The translations under genes were made by a program, and so were the position numbers. Below, in pieces: positions 7,410 to 18,508 of a stretch of 49,110 nucleotides of DNA; position 1 is the first letter of the stretch; every line of letters begins with the position of its first letter. Location of the stretch: positions 1 to 49,110 of the forward strand of contig CACIWI010000006.1 of assembly GCA_902590355.1 (NCBI GenBank), in the 5' to 3' direction. The stretch is from an uncultured Prochlorococcus sp. (lineage in GTDB: Bacteria > Cyanobacteriota > Cyanobacteriia > PCC-6307 > Cyanobiaceae). The notes beneath the pieces were generated by a model, which saw nothing but the letters and a program-made list of their open reading frames with translations, was not told the origin of the DNA and ran no database searches.

Positions 7410-8267
7410 TTATTTTATTTCAAGAGGTTTGATTTCCCAGGATAAAGTATTATCTAAATTATTTTTTCCTATAAAGTTTCCTGTAATTACAGAAGTTAAA
7501 TTAGATTTTGAAGAGGATACTAATGTTAAATATCTATCATCTATTAATCCTTTTCCGCTTGGATCAAAACCTCTCCAACCAGCGCCTGGAATATATAATT
7601 CAGCCCAAGCGTGTAAATCCAACCCAGAGGGTAACGGATCTTCAAAATGATAACCACTTACAAACCTACTTGGGATACCTATAGATCTACAAGCTTCTAC
7701 CATCAGCATTGCTAAATCTCTGCATGAACCTATACGTTCTCTAAGCGTTCTACTTGCCGGCCATGCTGGTCCTGTATGTCTTTTGGTATATTTAACCCGA
7801 TCTTGAATAATCTCTATTAGCTGGTAGGTAAATGATAATGCGTTATTAATGCTTCCTGCTAAGGCTTCTTGGGCAAGTTCTACTGCAGAGGGATCGTGTT
7901 GTCCATTAGGCATCCATCCCTCTAATGCTCCCTGTAAATCTCTGTTAATAATGCTTCTACAAAAAGGTAATGTTAAATCTCTATTTTTAACTCCATCAAT
8001 AATGTTTGGATGTTTAATAGTTTCAACTTCACTGATTGATTCAATAATTAAATTATCTGTTAATCCATTGAATCTGATTCTATTAATCTCTTCTCCGCTG
8101 GCAGCAAGTAATGGATAAATAATTTCTGGTTCTGGGGTTATTTTTAATTCAAAATTCTTTAGCTTTTGGAATCCATTTGACCTTGGCTTTATACATAACC
8201 TATGTTCGCCTAATTGAACGGGGTCTTCGTATTTATATTCAAGTTTGTGAATGTATTTAATTCTCAT
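7410..8267 (-). CDS. Transglutaminase-like cysteine protease (ATP-grasp/alpha-E cluster)
   Basis: A 285-residue protein with an N-terminal beta-rich bacterial transglutaminase N domain and a C-terminal transglutaminase-like core. The catalytic triad is readable: Cys182 in RIGSCRD, His219 in LDLHAWAE and Asp235 in WRGFDPS. Members act as peptidases or amide-forming enzymes. It is the last gene of a three-gene minus-strand operon with an alpha-E protein (12 bases upstream) and a circularly permuted ATP-grasp protein. That trio is conserved across bacteria and was proposed by comparative genomics to make or process a peptide; the product is unknown. Confidence 0.9.
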   Translation of the reverse strand: MRIKYIHKLEYKYEDPVQLGEHRLCIKPRSNGFQKLKNFELKITPEPEIIYPLLAASGEEINRIRFNGLTDNLIIESISEVETIKHPNIIDGVKNRDLTLPFCRSIINRDLQGALEGWMPNGQHDPSAVELAQEALAGSINNALSFTYQLIEIIQDRVKYTKRHTGPAWPASRTLRERIGSCRDLAMLMVEACRSIGIPSRFVSGYHFEDPLPSGLDLHAWAELYIPGAGWRGFDPSGKGLIDDRYLTLVSSSKSNLTSVITGNFIGKNNLDNTLSWEIKPLEIK

Positions 8268-8278
8268 TAATAAACTAA

Positions 8279-9220
8279 TTAATTAATAAAATATTTTTCT
8301 TGAATGAGATCATTTAATTTATTTAAATCCATTTGCAATGAATCGATTGCCTCATGTAAACCATCATTGATTATATCTTCAATTCTGATATAACTCCACT
8401 TTGCTTTAAGCAAACCTCTCATGCATTCTAATTCTGAAGGATTTTCAGTAGATGGTGAGGTATCTATCGTTTTAAGTGTATTGCTTATCCCATCAAGACA
8501 GTATCTTACAGATCTAGGGAAAATTGGATCAAGTAAAAGAAATCTCGCAACTGAATTAGGCTTTATAGAATTTTGCACTGCTTTCCTAAACATTTGATAA
8601 GCTCCAGCTGATCGTAAAAGTGCTATCCATTGCAGCTCATCAAGAACTCCTCCAAGTTCATCTAAGCTGGGTAGGAGTAAATAATATTTAACATCTAAAA
8701 TTCTTGATGTTTTGTCAGCTCTTTCGATTAATCTTCCAAGAATGCTAAATCTCCAGGCAAGATCTTTGCTTAGAGTCGCATCTGTAATTCCATAAAAAAG
8801 CTGACATTCCCTCCTTATTTCACTTAATTGTTCTTGTCTTGGTTTATTCCATATTGCCTCTCCTTCTTGCATATTCCAATATAAAATATTAATCTGTTCC
8901 CACATTTCTGTGGTCATGACATCTCTGATTTGTCTTGCATTTTCTCTTGCCATTTGAATGCAAGAAATTATACTATTTGGGTTTAAACGATCTCTTATTA
9001 AAAAATTAATAACGTCATCAGGTTTTTTCTCTGGGAATCTCTTATCAAAAGATTCTCTGTCACTCGAAGCATCAATTAAAGGGAGCCAAGGTTCGGCACT
9101 TCCTGGTGGACAATCTAATGACATAGCTTCGCTTACTTCCACGAAACGAGATATGTTTTCCGCACGTTCTAAATAACGATTGATCCAATAAAGAGATTCT
9201 GCTACACGACTTAAAAGCAT
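8279..9220 (-). CDS. Alpha-E domain protein (formerly DUF403)
   Basis: A 313-residue all-alpha protein beginning LLSRVAESLYWINRYLERAEN, the hallmark of the alpha-E family, with further conserved segments (RENARQIRDVMTTEMWEQIN, FSILGRLIERADKTSRILD). It is of full family length. It starts one base beyond the stop of the ATP-grasp gene and precedes the transglutaminase gene by 11 bases, so the three are tightly coupled. The biochemical role of alpha-E domains is not known; association with ATP-grasp and transglutaminase enzymes is the main clue. Confidence 0.92.
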   Translation of the reverse strand: MLLSRVAESLYWINRYLERAENISRFVEVSEAMSLDCPPGSAEPWLPLIDASSDRESFDKRFPEKKPDDVINFLIRDRLNPNSIISCIQMARENARQIRDVMTTEMWEQINILYWNMQEGEAIWNKPRQEQLSEIRRECQLFYGITDATLSKDLAWRFSILGRLIERADKTSRILDVKYYLLLPSLDELGGVLDELQWIALLRSAGAYQMFRKAVQNSIKPNSVARFLLLDPIFPRSVRYCLDGISNTLKTIDTSPSTENPSELECMRGLLKAKWSYIRIEDIINDGLHEAIDSLQMDLNKLNDLIQEKYFIN

Positions 9221-9221
9221 A

Positions 9222-10664
9222 TTATTTACCTACAACCCATGTATCTTTGCATCCTCCGCCTTGAGAAGAATTAACGACTAATGATCCTTTTTTTAATGCT
9301 ACTCTCGTAAGCCCGCCTGGGCTAACCCATGAATCTTTTCCTCTTAAGATATATGGTCTTAAATCAACATGACATGGATATAGTTCTCCCTCACATAACG
9401 ATGGCACAGTAGATAATTCTAATGTAGGTTGTGCTATGAAATTTCTAGGATTATTTTTAATTTTATTAGCGAATTCTTCTATCTCACTCGTTGTTGAGTG
9501 AGGGCCAATTAACATTCCATAACCACCAGCTTCTGAGACAGACTTAACAACAAGTTTTGATAAATTTTCTAGAACATATTCTCGATCCTTTTGATAATGA
9601 CAAATATAAGTTTCTACATTTTTAATAATAATTTCTTCATCAAGATAATATTGAATCATTTTTGGAACAAAAGAATAAATCATTTTGTCATCTGCTATTC
9701 CAGTCCCAGGTGCATTTGCTAAAGCAACATGACCTGCCTTAAAAACATCAAGTAATCCGCTAACACCAAGGCAGGAATCTTTTCTGAAATTAAGTGGATC
9801 TAAGAAATCATCATCAATTCGTCTGTAAATGACATCTACTCTTTTTAATCCAGAGGTAGTTTTTAAATATACATAATCATCATTACAAACCAAGTCATGA
9901 CCTTGAACTAGTTGTATTCCCATTTCTTGAGCTAAATAACTATGTTCAAAATAAGCACTATTAAAAATTCCTGGAGTAAGTAGAACTATCTTGGGAGTAT
10001 CTGTCCAAACTGCAAGTTCTTGAAGAGTTTTTAAAAGATATGATGGATATTCATCGATAGGTTTTACTATTCTGCCTGAGAAAAGATTAGGGAAAATATT
10101 CTTCATGACTAATCTATTTTCTAAAAAATAAGCAACACCAGAAGGGCACCTTAAATTATCTTCTAAAACATGCCAATCTCCTTTTCTATCTCTTATTAGA
10201 TCAAGTCCTGAAATTTGACACCATTTATTTAGTGGAGGTTTGAAACCTATCATCTGAGGTCTCCAACCTTCTGAACTCTCTATTAATTCTCTTGGAATTA
10301 TTCCATCATTAATTATTTTTTGAGAATTATAAATATCATCTAGGAATAAATCAATTGCCTCAAGCCTTTGTTTTAGTCCTTTTTCTAAAGTTATCCAATC
10401 ATCTTTACTTATTATTCTAGGAAGTGGATCAAAAGGTAATATTCTCTCAGTACCTTTTAAACCAGTATCATTTAATCTAAAAGTTGCACCATGTCTTAGT
10501 AATAATTTTTTTGCGGCAGAATGATTCCTGTTTAACTCCTCAAGTCCCATATTATCTAAGGATGAAAGAAGTGGAATCAATATTTCTCTAGCAGAGTTAA
10601 CATTATCCTTAAAGTATTCATCAAAACTATTTTTAGGCTGATAACTTGAAAACATATATTTCAT
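9222..10664 (-). CDS. Circularly permuted ATP-grasp protein (DUF404/DUF407 type)
   Basis: A 480-residue enzyme of the circularly permuted type-2 ATP-grasp family. Recognisable stretches are ERILPFDPLPR near residue 75, DLIRDRKGDWHVLEDNLRCPSGV near 155-177, the YRRIDDDFLDP segment near 280 and GGYGMLIGP near 380, which supply ATP and metal contacts. ATP-grasp enzymes ligate a carboxylate to an amine through an acyl-phosphate. It is the first gene of the minus-strand operon with alpha-E and transglutaminase genes, and probably catalyses amide-bond formation in an uncharacterised peptide pathway. The promoter should lie in 10665-10792, shared with the divergent 78-aa gene. Confidence 0.92.
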   Translation of the reverse strand: MKYMFSSYQPKNSFDEYFKDNVNSAREILIPLLSSLDNMGLEELNRNHSAAKKLLLRHGATFRLNDTGLKGTERILPFDPLPRIISKDDWITLEKGLKQRLEAIDLFLDDIYNSQKIINDGIIPRELIESSEGWRPQMIGFKPPLNKWCQISGLDLIRDRKGDWHVLEDNLRCPSGVAYFLENRLVMKNIFPNLFSGRIVKPIDEYPSYLLKTLQELAVWTDTPKIVLLTPGIFNSAYFEHSYLAQEMGIQLVQGHDLVCNDDYVYLKTTSGLKRVDVIYRRIDDDFLDPLNFRKDSCLGVSGLLDVFKAGHVALANAPGTGIADDKMIYSFVPKMIQYYLDEEIIIKNVETYICHYQKDREYVLENLSKLVVKSVSEAGGYGMLIGPHSTTSEIEEFANKIKNNPRNFIAQPTLELSTVPSLCEGELYPCHVDLRPYILRGKDSWVSPGGLTRVALKKGSLVVNSSQGGGCKDTWVVGK

Positions 10665-12326: not shown

Positions 12327-13400
12327 TTACTTAAATCCCTTTGAAAAAAGGTTAGTACGAACTTTAAATTTCCATACATTTACAACACCTTTTGCATTGA
12401 CTGCTGCAAGTGCACAATCATCAGGTCTCCAAGATATTGCCCCTACTAAATCTCCTGCGAATGCAGCCCCAACGGGATCACCATTACCGTCATTTTTGAG
12501 AAAACTTGCGACAACAGAACCATCCCTAGATCCTGAGGCTACAAGCATACCTTTATTTGAAAAGGCTAGGCTCGAAATGGGTTCTGTATGGTGACATAGC
12601 TCTCCTGGCATAGTCCCTTCTGGACCATTTCCTATAAAGCTCCAAACTGTAATTCTTTCACTGCCACTAGTTGCTAATAATTTTCCGCTGTCATCAAAAG
12701 AAAGATGACTTGGTTTACCAGGGTATCCAGTCATTTCAGCATCCATTCCTGTTGATCTTCTCCAAAAATGAACTGAATTGTCTTGACTCCCACAGGCGAC
12801 TATATCTCCATCAGGGCTTAATTCCATAGATACCAATGATCCTTGCCATTCGAGTTTTTGATTCGTTTTATTATTAACTATGTCAAAGAATGTCACTCTT
12901 CCATAGCAAGCAGTTGCTAGCTCATTTTTATTTGACCACGTTATTGCACTTACTGTGCTTGGATGGTCTTCTGAGATCCATTTCTCTTCACCAATTTCAT
13001 TAAAAACATATACTTTTTTTGAGGAAGCTATCGCTAGAAATAAACCATCATTAGACCACTTGAGGTGTTCTACCCAACCTTTGCCAAGATCAAGTGTTTT
13101 AATAACTTTACCTTCATGGCAATTACAAATTTGAACATTTCCATCCTGACCTGATGTTGCAAAAATTTCACCCTCTGGATGAATTGCCATTGCTAGTAGA
13201 CCACCAGAGTGAGTATTTTCTTTTTTCCAAATAATTTTTCCAGTATCTCCTTCGAACGAAAAAAGACCTCCTGCTACGTCGCCAACAATAAATTGTTTTC
13301 CTTTAAGAGCCCAGCCACATGCTATGGCGTAATCGTTAACTTCAGCAGTCCATCCTTCATGGAACATGCCTCTTGGGCTAAATGGTTCTATATCAGGCAT
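12327..13400 (-). CDS. WD40-repeat protein of the zinc island
   Basis: A 357-residue beta-propeller made almost wholly of WD40 repeats, with repeated units of the type GLLAMAIHPEGEIFATSGQDG, SLVSMELSPDGDIVACGSQD and ISSLAFSNKGMLVASGSRDG; about seven blades. There is no signal peptide, so it is probably a cytoplasmic scaffold. Its start overlaps the last 13 bases of the COG0523 GTPase gene, indicating translational coupling, and both lie in a zinc uptake island. A role with the GTPase in zinc delivery is an inference from this arrangement. Confidence 0.85.
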   Translation of the reverse strand: MPDIEPFSPRGMFHEGWTAEVNDYAIACGWALKGKQFIVGDVAGGLFSFEGDTGKIIWKKENTHSGGLLAMAIHPEGEIFATSGQDGNVQICNCHEGKVIKTLDLGKGWVEHLKWSNDGLFLAIASSKKVYVFNEIGEEKWISEDHPSTVSAITWSNKNELATACYGRVTFFDIVNNKTNQKLEWQGSLVSMELSPDGDIVACGSQDNSVHFWRRSTGMDAEMTGYPGKPSHLSFDDSGKLLATSGSERITVWSFIGNGPEGTMPGELCHHTEPISSLAFSNKGMLVASGSRDGSVVASFLKNDGNGDPVGAAFAGDLVGAISWRPDDCALAAVNAKGVVNVWKFKVRTNLFSKGFK

Positions 13401-14737
13401 TTATCAAAGCCTTCTTGCATCTCTTTCTCATTTAAATTTCTACCGATAAAAACAAGTTGATTTCTACGAGGTTCGTTACCCCATTCTTTATCAGGTTGTG
13501 CAGTAAATAACATGTGAACTCCCTGGAAAACTATTCTCCTTGGGTTACCTGAGTAACTTATGAAACCTTTAGTTCTGAATATATCCACTCCTTTTTCTGA
13601 GAGAAGTCTTCCCATCCAAGTATTTAGTTTTTCTGGGTCAACATCTCCAAAACGCTCTATAGCAATTGAGCCTACTTCATCATCATGTTCGTGCTCTGCT
13701 TGCCAGAATCTTTCAGTATTATATGGAATCTCTTTATTTTCGTCACTTTTAATGACTTTCATATTGAATTCTTCAGCAGTGTGCTGTGTAAACAAACCTA
13801 TTTTTGTTGGTTTTTCTATGTTCAGGATGAATGATTTATTTCCTTTATCCTCCAATTTGAGATTTATATGTTCTCCATATGGGATGGTATTTCCAGGATC
13901 TAAACTATTAGCTTTTTCTGCATAAAGTCTCACGGAGGATTCAGCACCATCTTTAAGTTCCTCTTCACTCTCTCCTTGGTTAGCGAGGGCTACTAAGGAC
14001 ATTTCTGGATCGGGTCCTTCTTCTAGCATTAATTCATATTTACCTGCATCAAGATCGTAAACACCTGTCCATTCAAAAGGATATTCTGGTTCAAGGAATG
14101 TTGGCCTGCGTTTAAGGATCTGATCAAGATCAAATGCACTTAGATTTAAGACTGTTTCAATTGGTACTTTGGCATTCTCGGCTCTAATAATTCGTGTCAT
14201 TCGGTTCATATCTCTCAATCTCGATTCAAGAGTGTCTAGTGCATCATCAGAGACTAAATCAGTTTTATTAAGGACAAGAACATCTGCAAATGCCACTTGT
14301 TCTGAACTTTCGTCACTCCTGCCTAACTGTTGATCAATGTGGGCAGCATCAACTAAAGTCACAATTCCATCAAGAGTGAATTCAGAACTAATCTCTTCAT
14401 CCATGAAAAATGTCTGAGCAACTGGGCCTGGATCAGCTAATCCTGTTGTTTCTACTAAAACATAGTCAAACTTATCTCTTCTTTTCATAAGGTTGCCAAG
14501 GACCCTTATTAAATCACCGCGAACAGTACAACAAATGCACCCGTTTGACATCTCAAACACTTCTTCATCGGCATTAATTACGAGACCTTGATCTATACCC
14601 ACTTCACCGTATTCATTTTCAATTACTGCTATTCTTTTCCCGTGCTCTTCACTCAATATTCTATTAAGCAAAGTAGTCTTCCCTGAACCTAAAAATCCAG
14701 TGAGAATAGTAACGGGAACTTTATCTTGGATGCTCAT
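13388..14737 (-). CDS. COG0523 (CobW-type) GTPase, probable zinc chaperone, with inserted domain
   Basis: A 449-residue G3E-family GTPase. Visible motifs: P-loop GFLGSGKTT (residues 14-22), Walker-B-region VETTGL (95-100), the metal-binding CICC (67-70), NKTD guanine specificity (157-160) and a CobW C-terminal domain from about residue 355 to the end, preceded by a His-containing EHEHDDEV. Between the two lies an extra domain of about 105 residues (about 220-325: FEWTGVYDL ... DPEMSLVAL ... GLFTQHTAEEF) whose pattern also occurs in ZnuA next door. COG0523 proteins of this context deliver zinc to target enzymes under zinc limitation. It is coupled to the WD40 gene downstream. Confidence 0.88.
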   Translation of the reverse strand: MSIQDKVPVTILTGFLGSGKTTLLNRILSEEHGKRIAVIENEYGEVGIDQGLVINADEEVFEMSNGCICCTVRGDLIRVLGNLMKRRDKFDYVLVETTGLADPGPVAQTFFMDEEISSEFTLDGIVTLVDAAHIDQQLGRSDESSEQVAFADVLVLNKTDLVSDDALDTLESRLRDMNRMTRIIRAENAKVPIETVLNLSAFDLDQILKRRPTFLEPEYPFEWTGVYDLDAGKYELMLEEGPDPEMSLVALANQGESEEELKDGAESSVRLYAEKANSLDPGNTIPYGEHINLKLEDKGNKSFILNIEKPTKIGLFTQHTAEEFNMKVIKSDENKEIPYNTERFWQAEHEHDDEVGSIAIERFGDVDPEKLNTWMGRLLSEKGVDIFRTKGFISYSGNPRRIVFQGVHMLFTAQPDKEWGNEPRRNQLVFIGRNLNEKEMQEGFDKCLI

Positions 14738-14814
14738 TTACTGATTTTTACAAAATAAACAATAGTTTAATAATAGTAATAACTAGAAATGAAAACCGTT
14801 TTTATTAGAAAAAT

Positions 14815-16350
14815 TTAATCTGAAAGTTTGTACCATTCAGACTCAAGATTGGAGCCAGATTCTTTATCGCAGCTTCCACCTAATGAATCAACAATTGTAC
14901 AAGTGTTGTGTACAGCTACTGAAACAGTATTACCATCCATCATCAATCCATCAACAAATATTTGATTAGGAGAAATAGGAATAGAACTTTGTCTGCTTAG
15001 ATTTCTTAACAGTTTGGAAGCAGGTTTTTGCTCTGGGAAAAGAGCCAAAACATTATCTTCTTTAAGTTCTTTAAGTACGGACTTTATATTTTCCGGTCTT
15101 AAGCTTGAGGAGTCTCCAAGAAAGTCAAGTAAACTAATGGTTTCAAAACCAAAAGCATCTCCGTAGTATTCCATCGCCTTGTGTTTAGACACAATTACTC
15201 TGTTCTCCTCAGGAATGGAGCCTACTTGTTCGACGATCCAACTATCCAAGTCTTCCAAGATAGAATCAGCCTTTTCAAATCTTTCATTAATTTGCTTTCT
15301 TATGCTTTTCTTAGAAGCATCCTTCTTTAAACTTTCGTTTATAACATTTCCCATTTTTATAATGTTATGAGGATCATGCCAGACATGAGGATCTAGTCCT
15401 CCATGGTCATGATGATGATGCCCCTCTCCTTCATCTGGTACTTGTGCTATGGGCTCTACATCATTATTCAATGCGTCTTTAAAAAAGTGCTCATTTGCCT
15501 CAAACTCAAAAGGCATGTGTTCAGTAAAAAATGTGTACTGACCATCTTCTTTAATTTCCACGTTGAAAACTGTGCTTTCTTTTCGTTGATCGAAGTTAAG
15601 CACAAAAGCTTTATCACTTGCTTTAAGAGTCCCATTATTATTTCTCCTTGTTGAGAATCTAGATCCTAATAGTTCTTTAGCTAAATCTTCCGATCCCTCT
15701 ATGTCATTAGATTTTAGAATTACCATTTTCATTGCAGGATCTGCATATTCGCCATCAACTTTTGCGAATGACCATTTGTAGGATCCTTTAGATAACTGGA
15801 ATTTACCTGCCCATTCGAAAGCTCCTTCAGCGTGGTCATCATGTCCACCATGATCTGAGTGATCATCGTGACCTCCATGATCAGAGTGATCGTCATGACC
15901 TCCATGATCAGAGTGGTCATCTACCTTAGCTGAATGTTCAGCGTGATCATCATGTCCCGCATGATCAGAGTGGTCATCTACATTTATTGCGCTAACACCT
16001 ATAACAACTGTTTGCTTTTTGCTTTCCCAATTTCTCATACTTGGAGTCATTTCTTTACCAAGAGTGAATACTTTATCGGCGTTATTAAGTAATTGAGCTT
16101 GTCTTGGATTGATCTTAAAGTCATGAACATCCTGCTTTCTATCTACTAAGCAAGTAACTTCGTCAGAAGGTAATGCAATTGATTTAACTAAATCACAAAC
16201 TAGTGGTTCTACTGCTACGTATGACTTTCCCTTAGCCAAAACATCCTGCCCAAAACCAGAAAATATTATTGTTCCTGCTATCAGGGAATTTTTGATAATT
16301 GAATTACTTGAACTTGTTTTATTTGTTAAAAGTCTTTCCAAAATTGACAT
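14815..16350 (-). CDS. znuA: Zinc ABC transporter binding protein ZnuA with His-rich loop and inserted domain
   Basis: A 511-residue periplasmic zinc-binding protein, far longer than the roughly 300 usual for ZnuA. After a signal-like N-terminus (cleavage near VLAKG) the ZnuA fold begins; probable ligands are His76 (DVHDFK), His322 (DPHVWHD), His390 (SKHKAM) and Asp467. Between the first two is a His/Asp-rich stretch (about 125-175) with three exact DDHSDHGGH units, then a 110-residue domain (about 177-287: FEWAGKFQL ... DPAMKMVIL ... FFTEHMPFEF), then HHHHDH. The added domain matches an insert in the adjacent COG0523 GTPase. It is transcribed divergently from znuC across a Zur-box-like site. 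Confidence 0.93.
   Translation of the reverse strand: MSILERLLTNKTSSSNSIIKNSLIAGTIIFSGFGQDVLAKGKSYVAVEPLVCDLVKSIALPSDEVTCLVDRKQDVHDFKINPRQAQLLNNADKVFTLGKEMTPSMRNWESKKQTVVIGVSAINVDDHSDHAGHDDHAEHSAKVDDHSDHGGHDDHSDHGGHDDHSDHGGHDDHAEGAFEWAGKFQLSKGSYKWSFAKVDGEYADPAMKMVILKSNDIEGSEDLAKELLGSRFSTRRNNNGTLKASDKAFVLNFDQRKESTVFNVEIKEDGQYTFFTEHMPFEFEANEHFFKDALNNDVEPIAQVPDEGEGHHHHDHGGLDPHVWHDPHNIIKMGNVINESLKKDASKKSIRKQINERFEKADSILEDLDSWIVEQVGSIPEENRVIVSKHKAMEYYGDAFGFETISLLDFLGDSSSLRPENIKSVLKELKEDNVLALFPEQKPASKLLRNLSRQSSIPISPNQIFVDGLMMDGNTVSVAVHNTCTIVDSLGGSCDKESGSNLESEWYKLSD
15841..15921 (-). repeat. Three 27-bp tandem repeats encoding DDHSDHGGH
   Basis: Within znuA three successive nine-codon units encode DDHSDHGGH, flanked on both sides by degenerate copies (DDHSDHAGHDD, DDHAEG). 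Base differences between units are mostly synonymous, so selection appears to keep the protein repeat. His/Asp loops in ZnuA proteins gather and sense zinc; copy number of such repeats can change by slippage. Confidence 0.85.
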
Positions 16351-16374
16351 AAAAAATTATTAAATACTTAAAAA

Positions 16375-16389
16375 TGATAATCATTTTCA
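16375..16389. promoter_or_regulatory. Putative Zur operator between znuA and znuC
   Basis: TGATAATCATTTTCA is a near-perfect 7-1-7 inverted repeat (TGATAAT, centre C, ATTTTCA) matching the Fur/Zur-type consensus TGATAATNATTATCA except for one base. It sits 25 bases upstream of the znuA start and 97 bases upstream of znuC, whose TATAAA -10 element is near 16456-16461. The site could repress both divergent genes when zinc is ample. The assignment to Zur instead of Fur rests on the gene neighbourhood. Confidence 0.75.
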
Positions 16390-16485: not shown

Positions 16486-17256
16486 ATGGCTACTTTAGTC
16501 GCGGAAAATTTAACCTATTCATACACAAAAAAAAGTAAGCCAGTTTTAAGTAAGGTATCGGTTGAGATTAAACCGGGTACTCTAACAGCGCTAGTTGGTC
16601 CAAACGGAGCTGGCAAATCTACTCTTTTAAGAATATTGCAGGGACAATGTATTCCTGATAATGGCCAGATAACAATTGACGGGGAGAAGTTAATTAGACA
16701 AAGATCTCAAGTCTCACTTATGCCACAAAGAAGCTCTATGAATTGGAAATTTCCAATAACTGTAGAAAAACTAGTTTCATTAGGACAAATAAAATACTCA
16801 AAATCAAAAAGTAGTAGTCCTTTTCAAATAAAAGCTCTTCTTGCTAACCCTAATGCATGGATTAATAAATGCTGTGAATTGGAGGCCACAATGCAAAGAG
16901 TCGGCATTGCAAATATTGCTAAAAGAAGGCTTGATTCTTTATCTGGTGGACAACAACAAAGAGCTCTATTAGCCAAAACATTAATGTCTCCAGCAAAAAT
17001 TTTCCTTCTTGATGAACCTTGTGCAGCTTTAGATCCACCTGCAAAGGAGGATTTTCTAAAAATTGTTCGTCAACTTGCTGATGCTGGTCTTTCTTTAATG
17101 GTGAGCAGTCATGATTGGGGTACCTCGTTAAATAGTTATGATCAAGTTATTGTTTTGGATAAAGCTGTATTGGCCTGTGGAAGCCCTGATTCCATAAAAG
17201 ATAAATTAGAGGATATAAATATCAGCTCTATTGAGGATAATAATTGTTGTGATTAA
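16486..17256 (+). CDS. znuC: Zinc ABC transporter ATPase ZnuC
   Basis: A 256-residue ABC ATPase with Walker A GPNGAGKST (about residues 38-46), the Q-loop MPQRSS, signature LSGGQQQR (about 155-162), Walker B IFLLDEP and the switch His in SSHDWG. It would energise the zinc importer with ZnuA and ZnuB. The ATG at 16486 follows the divergent promoter with the Zur-like box. Its stop is 14 bases from the converging end of zur, so znuC and znuB are separated by an opposite-strand regulator. Confidence 0.92.
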   Translation: MATLVAENLTYSYTKKSKPVLSKVSVEIKPGTLTALVGPNGAGKSTLLRILQGQCIPDNGQITIDGEKLIRQRSQVSLMPQRSSMNWKFPITVEKLVSLGQIKYSKSKSSSPFQIKALLANPNAWINKCCELEATMQRVGIANIAKRRLDSLSGGQQQRALLAKTLMSPAKIFLLDEPCAALDPPAKEDFLKIVRQLADAGLSLMVSSHDWGTSLNSYDQVIVLDKAVLACGSPDSIKDKLEDINISSIEDNNCCD

Positions 17257-17270
17257 AAAAATATTTAGTT

Positions 17271-17705
17271 TTAACTTTGTGCTTGATAGCAGTTCTGGCA
17301 AAGTCCGAAATACTCCAGAGTATGGAACAACAATTGGAATTTCTTTGGATTTGTTTTGGGTGTATGAATATCTTTTACAGGGCACCCTTCCATTTTTGAA
17401 GTCTCACCACATTGAACGCATGTCAAATGATGAATGTCTCTATCTACGGGAGTGTAAAGAACCTCTCCTGTTGGGAGATGTCTAGAACGTATTAAACCAT
17501 GCTTTATAAGAACTTGAAGATTCCTGTATACAGTTGTCAGTCCCATAGCTTTTCCGCTTTCAATCAATTGTCTATGCAACTCTTGACCGCTCAGTTCATC
17601 TTCACATTTATTAAGTTCTTCAAGAAGTTGTTCTTGTCTTTTGGTAATGTCAGACTTAGTTACCATTGTTTCCGAAATCTTTTTTTGTCCCGTATTTTTG
17701 ATCAT
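17271..17705 (-). CDS. zur: Fur-family regulator, probably Zur
   Basis: A 144-residue Fur-family repressor. The DNA-recognition helix region reads GLTTVYRNLQVL (about residues 55-66); CVQC (about 96-99) and CQNC (138-141) give the structural zinc site; HLTCVQCG and the CPVKDIHTP segment supply regulatory ligands. Context inside znuA-znuC-znuB makes zinc the likely corepressor. The ATG at 17705 is assigned, but an internal ATG at 17666 (MVTKSDITKRQEQ) gives a more typical N-terminus. It lies on the opposite strand between znuC and znuB, with its start 17 bases from that of znuB, so both may respond to one control region. Confidence 0.88.
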   Translation of the reverse strand: MIKNTGQKKISETMVTKSDITKRQEQLLEELNKCEDELSGQELHRQLIESGKAMGLTTVYRNLQVLIKHGLIRSRHLPTGEVLYTPVDRDIHHLTCVQCGETSKMEGCPVKDIHTPKTNPKKFQLLFHTLEYFGLCQNCYQAQS

Positions 17706-17722
17706 ACCGAATCAATAGATTA

Positions 17723-18508
17723 ATGTCTTTTATTAATAGCAGTTGGTGGCTTGTTCCTTTAATAATAACTATTTTTTCAGGAATTCTATGTCCAGCTATG
17801 GGAACTGTATTAATAACACATAGGAGATTACTTCAAGTAAATTTAATCTCTCACTGCGTTTTGCCAGGGCTTGCTTTAGCATTGGCGCTTGGAATTCATC
17901 CTTCAATTGGTGGGGTTATCAGTGGTCTTTTAGGTTCTGTAATTGCAGAAAGTTTAACTAATAAAAAGAGTGAAAACTATGAAGCAATAATGAACACAAT
18001 ATTAGCCGGAATGCTTGGGTTTGGAGTCCTTATAATCCCTCTACTCGGAATAAGGATTGATTTGGAGGCAGTATTATTTGGCGATTTATTGACAGCAAAT
18101 TTTGGAGATTTACTTAGAACAATAATTGCTTTTTTAGTATTTATACTTTTAATGACTTTTGGATATGAAAAGGTTGTTTATGTTGGATTAGATCCAGAAG
18201 GTGCATCCGCAAGTGGTATAAACGTATCTTTATTAAATCTTGCTTTGAGTTTTACAACGGCATTAGTAATTGTTAGTTCAATGTCAGCAGTGGGAGTGAT
18301 TCTTGTTATTGCTCTTCTTTCTACCCCAACACTGTTAGGGCTTAATAAGGCTCATAGTTTAAGAATTGGAATGATGAGGTCTTCATTTTTTGGATTATGT
18401 ATATCACTTCTGGGCTTTATTCTCTCTATAGTCTTTAATTTGTCGCCTGGACCTGCAATTAGTGTTATTTGTGTCGCATCTCTTTTGATTCCTAAACTTC
18501 GTAAATAA
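17723..18508 (+). CDS. znuB: Zinc ABC transporter permease ZnuB
   Basis: A 261-residue permease of the ABC-3 family with about eight membrane helices; RRLLQVNLISHCVLPGLALA near the start and the GLDPEGASASGI segment in the cytoplasmic half are typical of ZnuB/MntB proteins. It forms the channel for zinc delivered by ZnuA. It starts 17 bases from the divergent zur gene, so its promoter overlaps the zur 5' end; no clear TGATAAT palindrome was seen in that gap. Confidence 0.92.
   Translation: MSFINSSWWLVPLIITIFSGILCPAMGTVLITHRRLLQVNLISHCVLPGLALALALGIHPSIGGVISGLLGSVIAESLTNKKSENYEAIMNTILAGMLGFGVLIIPLLGIRIDLEAVLFGDLLTANFGDLLRTIIAFLVFILLMTFGYEKVVYVGLDPEGASASGINVSLLNLALSFTTALVIVSSMSAVGVILVIALLSTPTLLGLNKAHSLRIGMMRSSFFGLCISLLGFILSIVFNLSPGPAISVICVASLLIPKLRK

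Follow-up and report, generated by a model that had tools for sequence, protein, structure and literature searches.

The window analysed here is a stretch of 49,110 nucleotides from an uncultured Prochlorococcus sp. (assembly GCA_902590355.1, contig CACIWI010000006.1, positions 1 to 49,110), whose own genome comprises 946,674 bases in 42 contigs and is 59% complete. It contains, on the minus strand, genes for a WD40-type protein, a COG0523 GTPase, and a ZnuA-type substrate-binding protein (SBP) of a metal ATP-binding cassette (ABC) transporter, with divergent znuC and znuB genes as well as a Fur-family gene alongside (Table 1). Both the GTPase and ZnuA carry an insert of about 112 residues. 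Judged by sequence comparison, this insert is an undescribed domain, for which we propose the name FEW domain.

Table 1. Genes, inserted domains, and putative regulatory site at the locus, in window coordinates.
Feature	Position	Strand	Evidence
COG0523 (G3E family) GTPase, 449 amino acids: cobW domain, inserted domain, CobW_C	13388..14737	-	Open reading frame; Pfam; YjiA alignment
GTPase insert, residues 219-330	13748..14083	-	Profile match 13751-14083; hhalign against ZnuA inserts; AlphaFold model
ZnuA-type metal ABC transporter SBP, 511 amino acids	14815..16350	-	Open reading frame; Pfam ZnuA
ZnuA insert, residues 176-289	15484..15825	-	Profile match 15484-15822; same-locus ZnuA without the domain
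WD40-type protein, overlaps GTPase stop	12327..13400	-	Open reading frame; usual partner gene of insert-bearing GTPase
Zur-box-like palindrome between divergent znuA and znuC	16371..16389	.	Sequence; exact match 16375-16389
znuC, ABC transporter ATPase	16486..17256	+	Open reading frame; name from sequence and context
Fur-family regulator, possibly Zur	17271..17705	-	Open reading frame; name from sequence and context
znuB, ABC transporter permease	17723..18508	+	Open reading frame; name from sequence and context

The GTPase matches PF02492 (cobW) at residues 8-184 (E = 2.4e-61) and PF07683 (CobW_C) at residues 356-448 (E = 2e-24). When aligned with Escherichia coli YjiA, residues 6-214 correspond to YjiA 3-214 and residues 351-444 to YjiA 220-313, so that residues 215-350 form an insert in the interdomain linker, which in YjiA consists of just residues 215-219. 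The translated protein carries the CxCC metal motif as GCICCT, and a metal role has been ascribed to this motif in COG0523 GTPases (PMC9010474). ZnuA matches PF01297, the Pfam ZnuA family, above the gathering score (E = 2.1e-42) in two stretches, the better one at residues 287-486. Its N-terminal part is followed by Asp/His repeats, the extra domain, HHHHDHGG, DPHVWHDP, and the remainder of the protein.

The two inserts are about 26% identical, and their similarity is only marginal when the pair is considered alone. BLASTP of the two proteins gave an E value of 3e-4 over a 49-column stretch, and the ZnuA insert used as a query against its own genome found the GTPase insert at an E value of 0.0116 (30% identity, query residues 3-109). 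These pairwise values would leave room for a chance likeness of two unrelated inserts, but the group profiles settle what they leave marginal. A profile-profile comparison (hhalign) of nine GTPase inserts with four Prochlorococcus-type ZnuA inserts gave a probability of 98.7% and an E value of 1.7e-16 over 103 columns, whereas 50 column-shuffled controls reached at most 1.3%. In addition, an intermediate sequence, the GTPase insert of another cyanobacterial family (L025, genome G048), matched both the ZnuA insert (1.9e-6) and the GTPase insert (3e-23). These sequence data show that ZnuA and the COG0523 GTPase have one homologous domain in common, and we regard the probability of a chance likeness as practically negligible. 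The initial annotation had proposed that the same inserted domain occurs in the two proteins, one expected to be periplasmic and the other cytoplasmic. The profile comparison that it had suggested as a check, with lack of similarity as the adverse outcome, found similarity, and the claim stands; the limits of the inserts also lie near the residues 220-325 and 177-287 given there.

No insert match above the curated cutoffs was found in Pfam, where the best listed models were DUF4885 (E = 0.025) and FAP42_B3 (0.015). No NCBIfam cutoff was reached; the strongest model, NF005913, was matched by 3 of 20 family members at an E value of 2.7e-4 and reached 19.7 bits where 382 are required. PHROG gave no credible insert match (best E value of 0.017, in 1 of 20 members), and a sequence search of the PDB gave none either. 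ZinT was not found at an E value of ≤1 for the inserts or the 20 family members, nor in the PDB sequence search, which leaves room for a remote kinship. The initial annotation had known of no published description of the domain, and we found none in the accessible literature on COG0523 with ZnuA or insertions, Prochlorococcus ZnuA, haloarchaeal ZnuA, diatom COG0523, and Synechococcus Zur, which consisted mainly of openly readable papers, a 2012 zinc genome-mining paper being outside this scope.

Among 386 genomes sampled across the cyanobacterial phylum, 31 carry the domain (E ≤ 0.01). Strong matches outside the window's family are GTPases throughout, with complete frames in genomes G048, G083, and G095; the gene of G060 is cut by the contig end, and the frame of G085 loses its C-terminal domain. 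Weak matches with E values of 0.09 to 0.78 (G013, G005, G029, G054, G037, G040, and G047) were left out. Within the window's family, the domain was detected in 99 of 250 genomes (E ≤ 0.001), in a sample for which 90% completeness was requested and the window's own genome was counted. Of these positives, 63 belong to the same genus, in which at least three genomes had no match, and 36 belong to other genera; beyond the genomes listed individually, a further 131 of the family had no match. Two or more matches were present in 82 of the 99 genomes and one in the other 17, and where the loci of single-match genomes were inspected (G024, G403, G268, and G304), the domain lies in the GTPase. A scan of genome contigs, covering the best 80 of 310 relatives, retrieved Prochlorococcus or uncultured Synechococcaceae in every case. 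Scans of viral contigs gave a few pattern matches and no confirmed relative, and a phage tblastn search found none.

The domain also occurs outside the cyanobacteria. A plasmid tblastn search with a GTPase insert as the query found 11 records, and three further queries yielded no records beyond these (6, 11, and 11 of them, respectively); since the spread beyond cyanobacteria is derived from plasmid records, it represents a lower bound. The set comprises GTPase genes from Pantoea agglomerans, Paraburkholderia (without the N-terminal part), and Pantoea soli (broken), as well as genes for four haloarchaeal ZnuA-like SBPs, three near-stand-alone haloarchaeal proteins, and one Alicyclobacillus membrane protein. 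In the near-stand-alone proteins the domain is found almost alone behind an apparent lipoprotein signal, judged by eye at the N terminus. In Natrinema versiforme, the gene for one of these proteins (L164:3875-4426) adjoins a cluster of urease genes on the downstream side, a neighborhood hinting at nickel besides zinc. The Alicyclobacillus (Bacillota) protein (L157:4788-5699), called a membrane protein from its hydrophobic stretches, has an HSxxPDHW motif and holds the domain within a loop rich in His; its gene lies near annotated cation transporters and a metal-sensitive regulator. Assignment of this host to the NicO-type transporters was rejected, as its joined flanks had no Pfam match even at an E value of 10. 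The Haloarcula halophila plasmid (W01, NZ_CP119561.1) bears an additional domain copy, which is broken (362290-362633). Upstream of domain-bearing haloarchaeal SBP genes lie two annotated GTP-binding protein genes (L156:1-2438 and L163:1-1458), inside which no domain was found.

For the analysis of conservation, 343 domain matches in loci were reduced to 171 distinct full-length domains and then to 24 at 80% identity. These 24 comprise 12 from GTPases, 5 from Prochlorococcus-type ZnuA, 3 from haloarchaeal ZnuA, 3 from near-stand-alone proteins, and 1 from the membrane protein. Partial or broken domains (that of Pantoea soli, the second place in Haloarcula halophila, and pieces at contig edges) are not part of the 171 or the 24.

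The domain occurs in or beside a His-rich stretch in unrelated hosts, since the sites in ZnuA, the GTPase, the haloarchaeal proteins, and the membrane protein all show this setting. In ZnuA proteins encoded at the same locus in other Prochlorococcus strains, beside an insert-bearing GTPase, Asp/His repeats replace the domain in frames of 371 to 411 amino acids (aligned proteins L150, L152, L155, and L232). Genome G340 possesses two ZnuA genes, one with the domain (L151, 525 amino acids) and one without it (L152, 390 amino acids, beside the GTPase). Two tandem copies of the domain are present in the ZnuA proteins of L023 (G023), L024 (G032), and L149 (G213) and in those of G595 and G606, with frames of 615 to 623 amino acids. 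In L149, the tandem protein that was aligned, the first copy occupies the site of the Asp/His repeats in the others. The ZnuA of L144 (G270) also shows two domains, with a run of X, an assembly gap, between them, and was excluded from the tandem count.

A comparable setting is seen in the GTPases, for which 8 of the 31 insert-free COG0523 relatives found were aligned. The linker is short and of the HEHD type in the closest of these (L234 to L237, with 58 to 63% identity over the GTPase domain), and four remoter ones have long His-rich linkers at the insertion point. In one of the close relatives (L237:1501-2541, G286), the C-terminal region is shortened, and the frame continues into sequence that on visual inspection looks like the WD40 partner, so that the two may be fused. 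In the haloarchaeal SBPs, the domain lies ahead of the DPHFW motif with His/Glu-rich sequence on its flanks, and His clusters also adjoin it in the near-stand-alone proteins and the membrane protein. At least two His residues are present within 40 residues downstream of the domain in all 24 nonredundant sequences.

To follow the history of the domain, a maximum-likelihood tree was calculated from 24 hand-picked domains, a set different from the 24 nonredundant ones. The domains cluster by host protein, with support of 100/100 for Prochlorococcus ZnuA, 92/91 for the GTPases, which is moderate, 99/97 for the near-stand-alone proteins, and 87/87 for haloarchaeal ZnuA; several branches are long, and the finer joins are unsure. 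The ZnuA domains of the lineage side with the haloarchaeal and membrane-protein (Bacillota) domains, away from the GTPase domain of their own genome. The suggestion in the initial annotation that the domain had moved between the two neighbors was therefore not upheld: the tree groups domains by host and not by genome, and the GTPase insert is nearer to a foreign GTPase insert (3e-23) than to the neighboring ZnuA insert. Recent local copying from one neighboring gene to the other in this lineage might be expected from the adjacency of the genes in the window, and tandem duplication within ZnuA does happen. However, the separation of the ZnuA (100/100) and GTPase (92/91) domains, the grouping of the former with archaeal and Bacillota domains, and the low identity between the neighbors (about 26%), with GTPase inserts elsewhere far closer to that of the window, make such copying most improbable. 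Because the domains group by host protein, the adjacency of the genes is more probably due to a common function and common regulation than to recent copying of the domain.

In 15 of the 16 loci examined, the insert-bearing GTPase has a WD40 homologue as its neighbor; nine of the loci belong to the window's own family, and two others are those of Paraburkholderia and Pantoea. The sole locus without this neighbor, L143, is that of a GTPase losing its C-terminal domain. The WD40-type homologues of Paraburkholderia and Pantoea match Pfam WD40. The partnership is independent of the insert, because the same gene is also paired with insert-free GTPases (L234 to L236). The three haloarchaeal SBP loci that were inspected showed no WD40 homologue. 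The GTPase gene of the window is linked with WD40 and znuABC genes, as is the case for COG0523 subfamily 5, which has been described as clustering with WD40 genes, znuABC, and sometimes Zur sites (Haas et al. 2009, PMC2770081).

The intergenic region between znuA and znuC contains the sole exact match in the window of TGATAATNATTNTCA. The search used a consensus that we take to be that of the Zur box. At two mismatches the pattern was not enriched in the window (13 found versus 11.4 expected), and the exact site alone was used. Among 74 znuA genes, all from close relatives, 71 have a site with one mismatch to the core upstream, one more has a site with two mismatches, and two have sites with six; in the control, such a site was present in 7 of 400 random 150-base pieces. 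In Synechococcus WH8102, expression of znuC, znuA, and two adjacent genes of unknown function is reported to increase when Zur is missing and when zinc is low (PMC9337993). Elsewhere in the window, a run of three genes on the minus strand (7410-10664) was observed. It resembles, and may represent, the set of circularly permuted ATP-grasp, alpha-E, and transglutaminase-like proteins.

Six residues of the domain are invariant in all 24 nonredundant sequences: the Glu of FEW, a Gly, the Asp of DP, and the His, Glu, and Phe of FTxHxPxEF. Trp, Gly, and Leu positions are 96% conserved, and the mean column identity is 46%. The invariant Glu, Asp, His, and Glu are possible metal ligands, from which we infer metal binding by the domain. 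An AlphaFold (AF2) model of the GTPase insert consists of three strands, one helix, and five strands, with a predicted local distance difference test score (pLDDT) of 65 and a predicted template modeling score (pTM) of 0.56; its alignment had 28 rows, from 62 sequences picked out of 112 distinct ones, all from the window and related loci. Prediction of full-length ZnuA without an alignment was unusable (pLDDT of 34). Among the top VIA-align matches of the insert model were SEC14-like proteins (Z of 5.9 to 6.0), presumably through their GOLD part, and p24 GOLD (Z of 5.8 and 5.1). A cellulosome carbohydrate-recognition module and many ordinary beta-sandwiches were also among them, the best Z being 6.0; matches below a Z of 8 are not discriminating. 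Foldseek gave no match to the insert model at an E value of ≤0.001. A beta-sandwich fold of the insert is plausible from this model.

Such a fold would also suit a domain that has no metal of its own and acts as a docking module or spacer, shielding, stiffening, or positioning the His-rich loop or binding a compartment-specific partner. The weak structural matches are to ordinary beta-sandwiches, including p24 GOLD and the carbohydrate-recognizing cellulosome module (Z ≤ 6.0), and the invariant Phe and Gly together with the near-invariant Trp could be core residues. In contrast, four invariant polar residues, Glu, Asp, His, and Glu, are hard to ascribe to packing across such different hosts, and the two host types that could be given a role are metal proteins. 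We consider this explanation rather unlikely. A single partner bound by the domain in both hosts is likewise unlikely, as the membrane is expected to separate the two proteins.

The invariant Glu, Asp, His, and Glu, the His-rich surroundings, and the Zur-like box before znuA make a metal-related role of the domain plausible, and the genomic context points to zinc as the metal of ZnuA. We assign a probability of roughly 0.55 to the following interpretation. ZnuA and the GTPase would have acquired the FEW domain separately and long ago. In each it occupies the flexible loop that is rich in His/Asp in relatives, which separates the two lobes in ZnuA and links the GTPase domain to the C-terminal domain in the COG0523 protein. 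The invariant Glu, Asp, His, and Glu would together make up a site that binds or exchanges metal, with Zn(II) as the likeliest ion. Metal captured by the domain and by the His residues that directly follow it would then be passed to the high-affinity site of the host, either the ZnuA cleft or the CxCC site of the GTPase. This relay would help the cell at very low zinc, and the domain may work with His-rich loops or replace them. The His-rich loop of zinc SBPs has been credited with raising zinc in the vicinity of the cleft (PMC8786288), and zinc is ultralow in the habitat of oligotrophic marine cyanobacteria (PMC9337993).

Several observations weigh against metal capture and relay by the domain. 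The HxH residues behind the domain in the GTPase are the family's own HxHD segment, which is also present in insert-free relatives. The ZnuA of the window has the His repeats alongside the domain, and the first domain of the tandem ZnuA of L023 has no His in the preceding 40 residues. The 24 domains were collected with a profile that already held the invariant residues, and the invariant Glu, Asp, and His could be structural instead of metal ligands. The fold model is weak at a pLDDT of 65 and a pTM of 0.56. No domain match was found in 355 of the 386 genomes sampled across the phylum. The choice of zinc is affected as well. The zinc-named NCBIfam models stayed below their cutoffs for ZnuA (ZnuA, 48.9 of 268 bits; AztC, 107.6 of 350; AdcA, 46.3 of 700). 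The picocyanobacterial branch may lie outside the reach of these models, and they do not probe membership in the wider SBP family. Among solved chains, the first five that match ZnuA by sequence are by name manganese ABC transporter lipoproteins, and PF01297 includes proteins for metals other than zinc. In addition, the ZnuA cluster defined in one study is described there as almost absent from Prochlorococcus (PMC8786288).

A metal-binding domain might also act as a metal-sensing gate. Metal on the domain would close or open the host, slowing the loading of ZnuA or switching the GTPase, with no hand-over. The domain does sit in the His-rich loop of ZnuA for which a regulatory role was proposed, reportedly by Wei et al. 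in 2007 for the protein of Synechocystis (a study cited by PMC10957091 and PMC8786288). Gating should need the fold of the host, yet the domain occurs in unrelated hosts and nearly alone, and we regard a gate as quite improbable. More tentatively than for the relay in the two window proteins, we propose that the FEW domain may be a portable metal-relay domain that is plugged into His-rich loops on both sides of the membrane in bacteria and archaea, in hosts as unrelated as importer SBPs, GTPase chaperones, a membrane protein, and free lipoproteins. Its Glu, Asp, His, and Glu would form a single-ion site, and the domain would serve as a structured, more selective substitute for poly-His.

The domain may bear on how an importer hands zinc over to a client in the cytoplasm, as it is common to the capture protein of the importer and the metal GTPase encoded at the same locus. 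It is a small, expressible target with a residue-level prediction (Glu, Asp, His, and Glu), and a set for comparison is provided by natural strains, whose ZnuA proteins contain no copy, one copy, or two copies. Its profile can be used to annotate hypothetical proteins of bacteria and archaea, such as those encoded beside urease genes or near cation transporters.

Among known systems, GOLD-type beta-sandwiches appear near the top of the structural matches obtained with the weak insert model (Z of 5.1 to 6.0), with no match in the PDB sequence search. COG0523 subfamily 5 resembles the window in its clustering with WD40 genes, znuABC, and sometimes Zur sites, and the accessible text of its description makes no mention of an inserted domain (PMC2770081). 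Synechocystis ZnuA has its His-rich loop at the same place in a protein of the same family (PDB 1PQ4; PMC8786288). The Synechocystis protein has the loop as such, whereas the ZnuA of the window has a conserved domain added within it. In streptococcal AdcA the second domain is ZinT, which is C-terminal and belongs to another family. AdcA is a two-domain zinc lipoprotein (PMC7858048), similar to the window's ZnuA in combining a zinc-recruiting SBP with a second domain. Unlike in AdcA, the domain of the window lies inside the SBP loop and is common to a GTPase. The supply of zinc to a ZnuA-type SBP is also known from AztD, which folds as a beta-propeller. AztD hands zinc directly to the SBP AztC (PMC6689063), as the FEW domain would do within ZnuA; AztD is a separate protein, whereas the FEW domain is part of the chain of its host.

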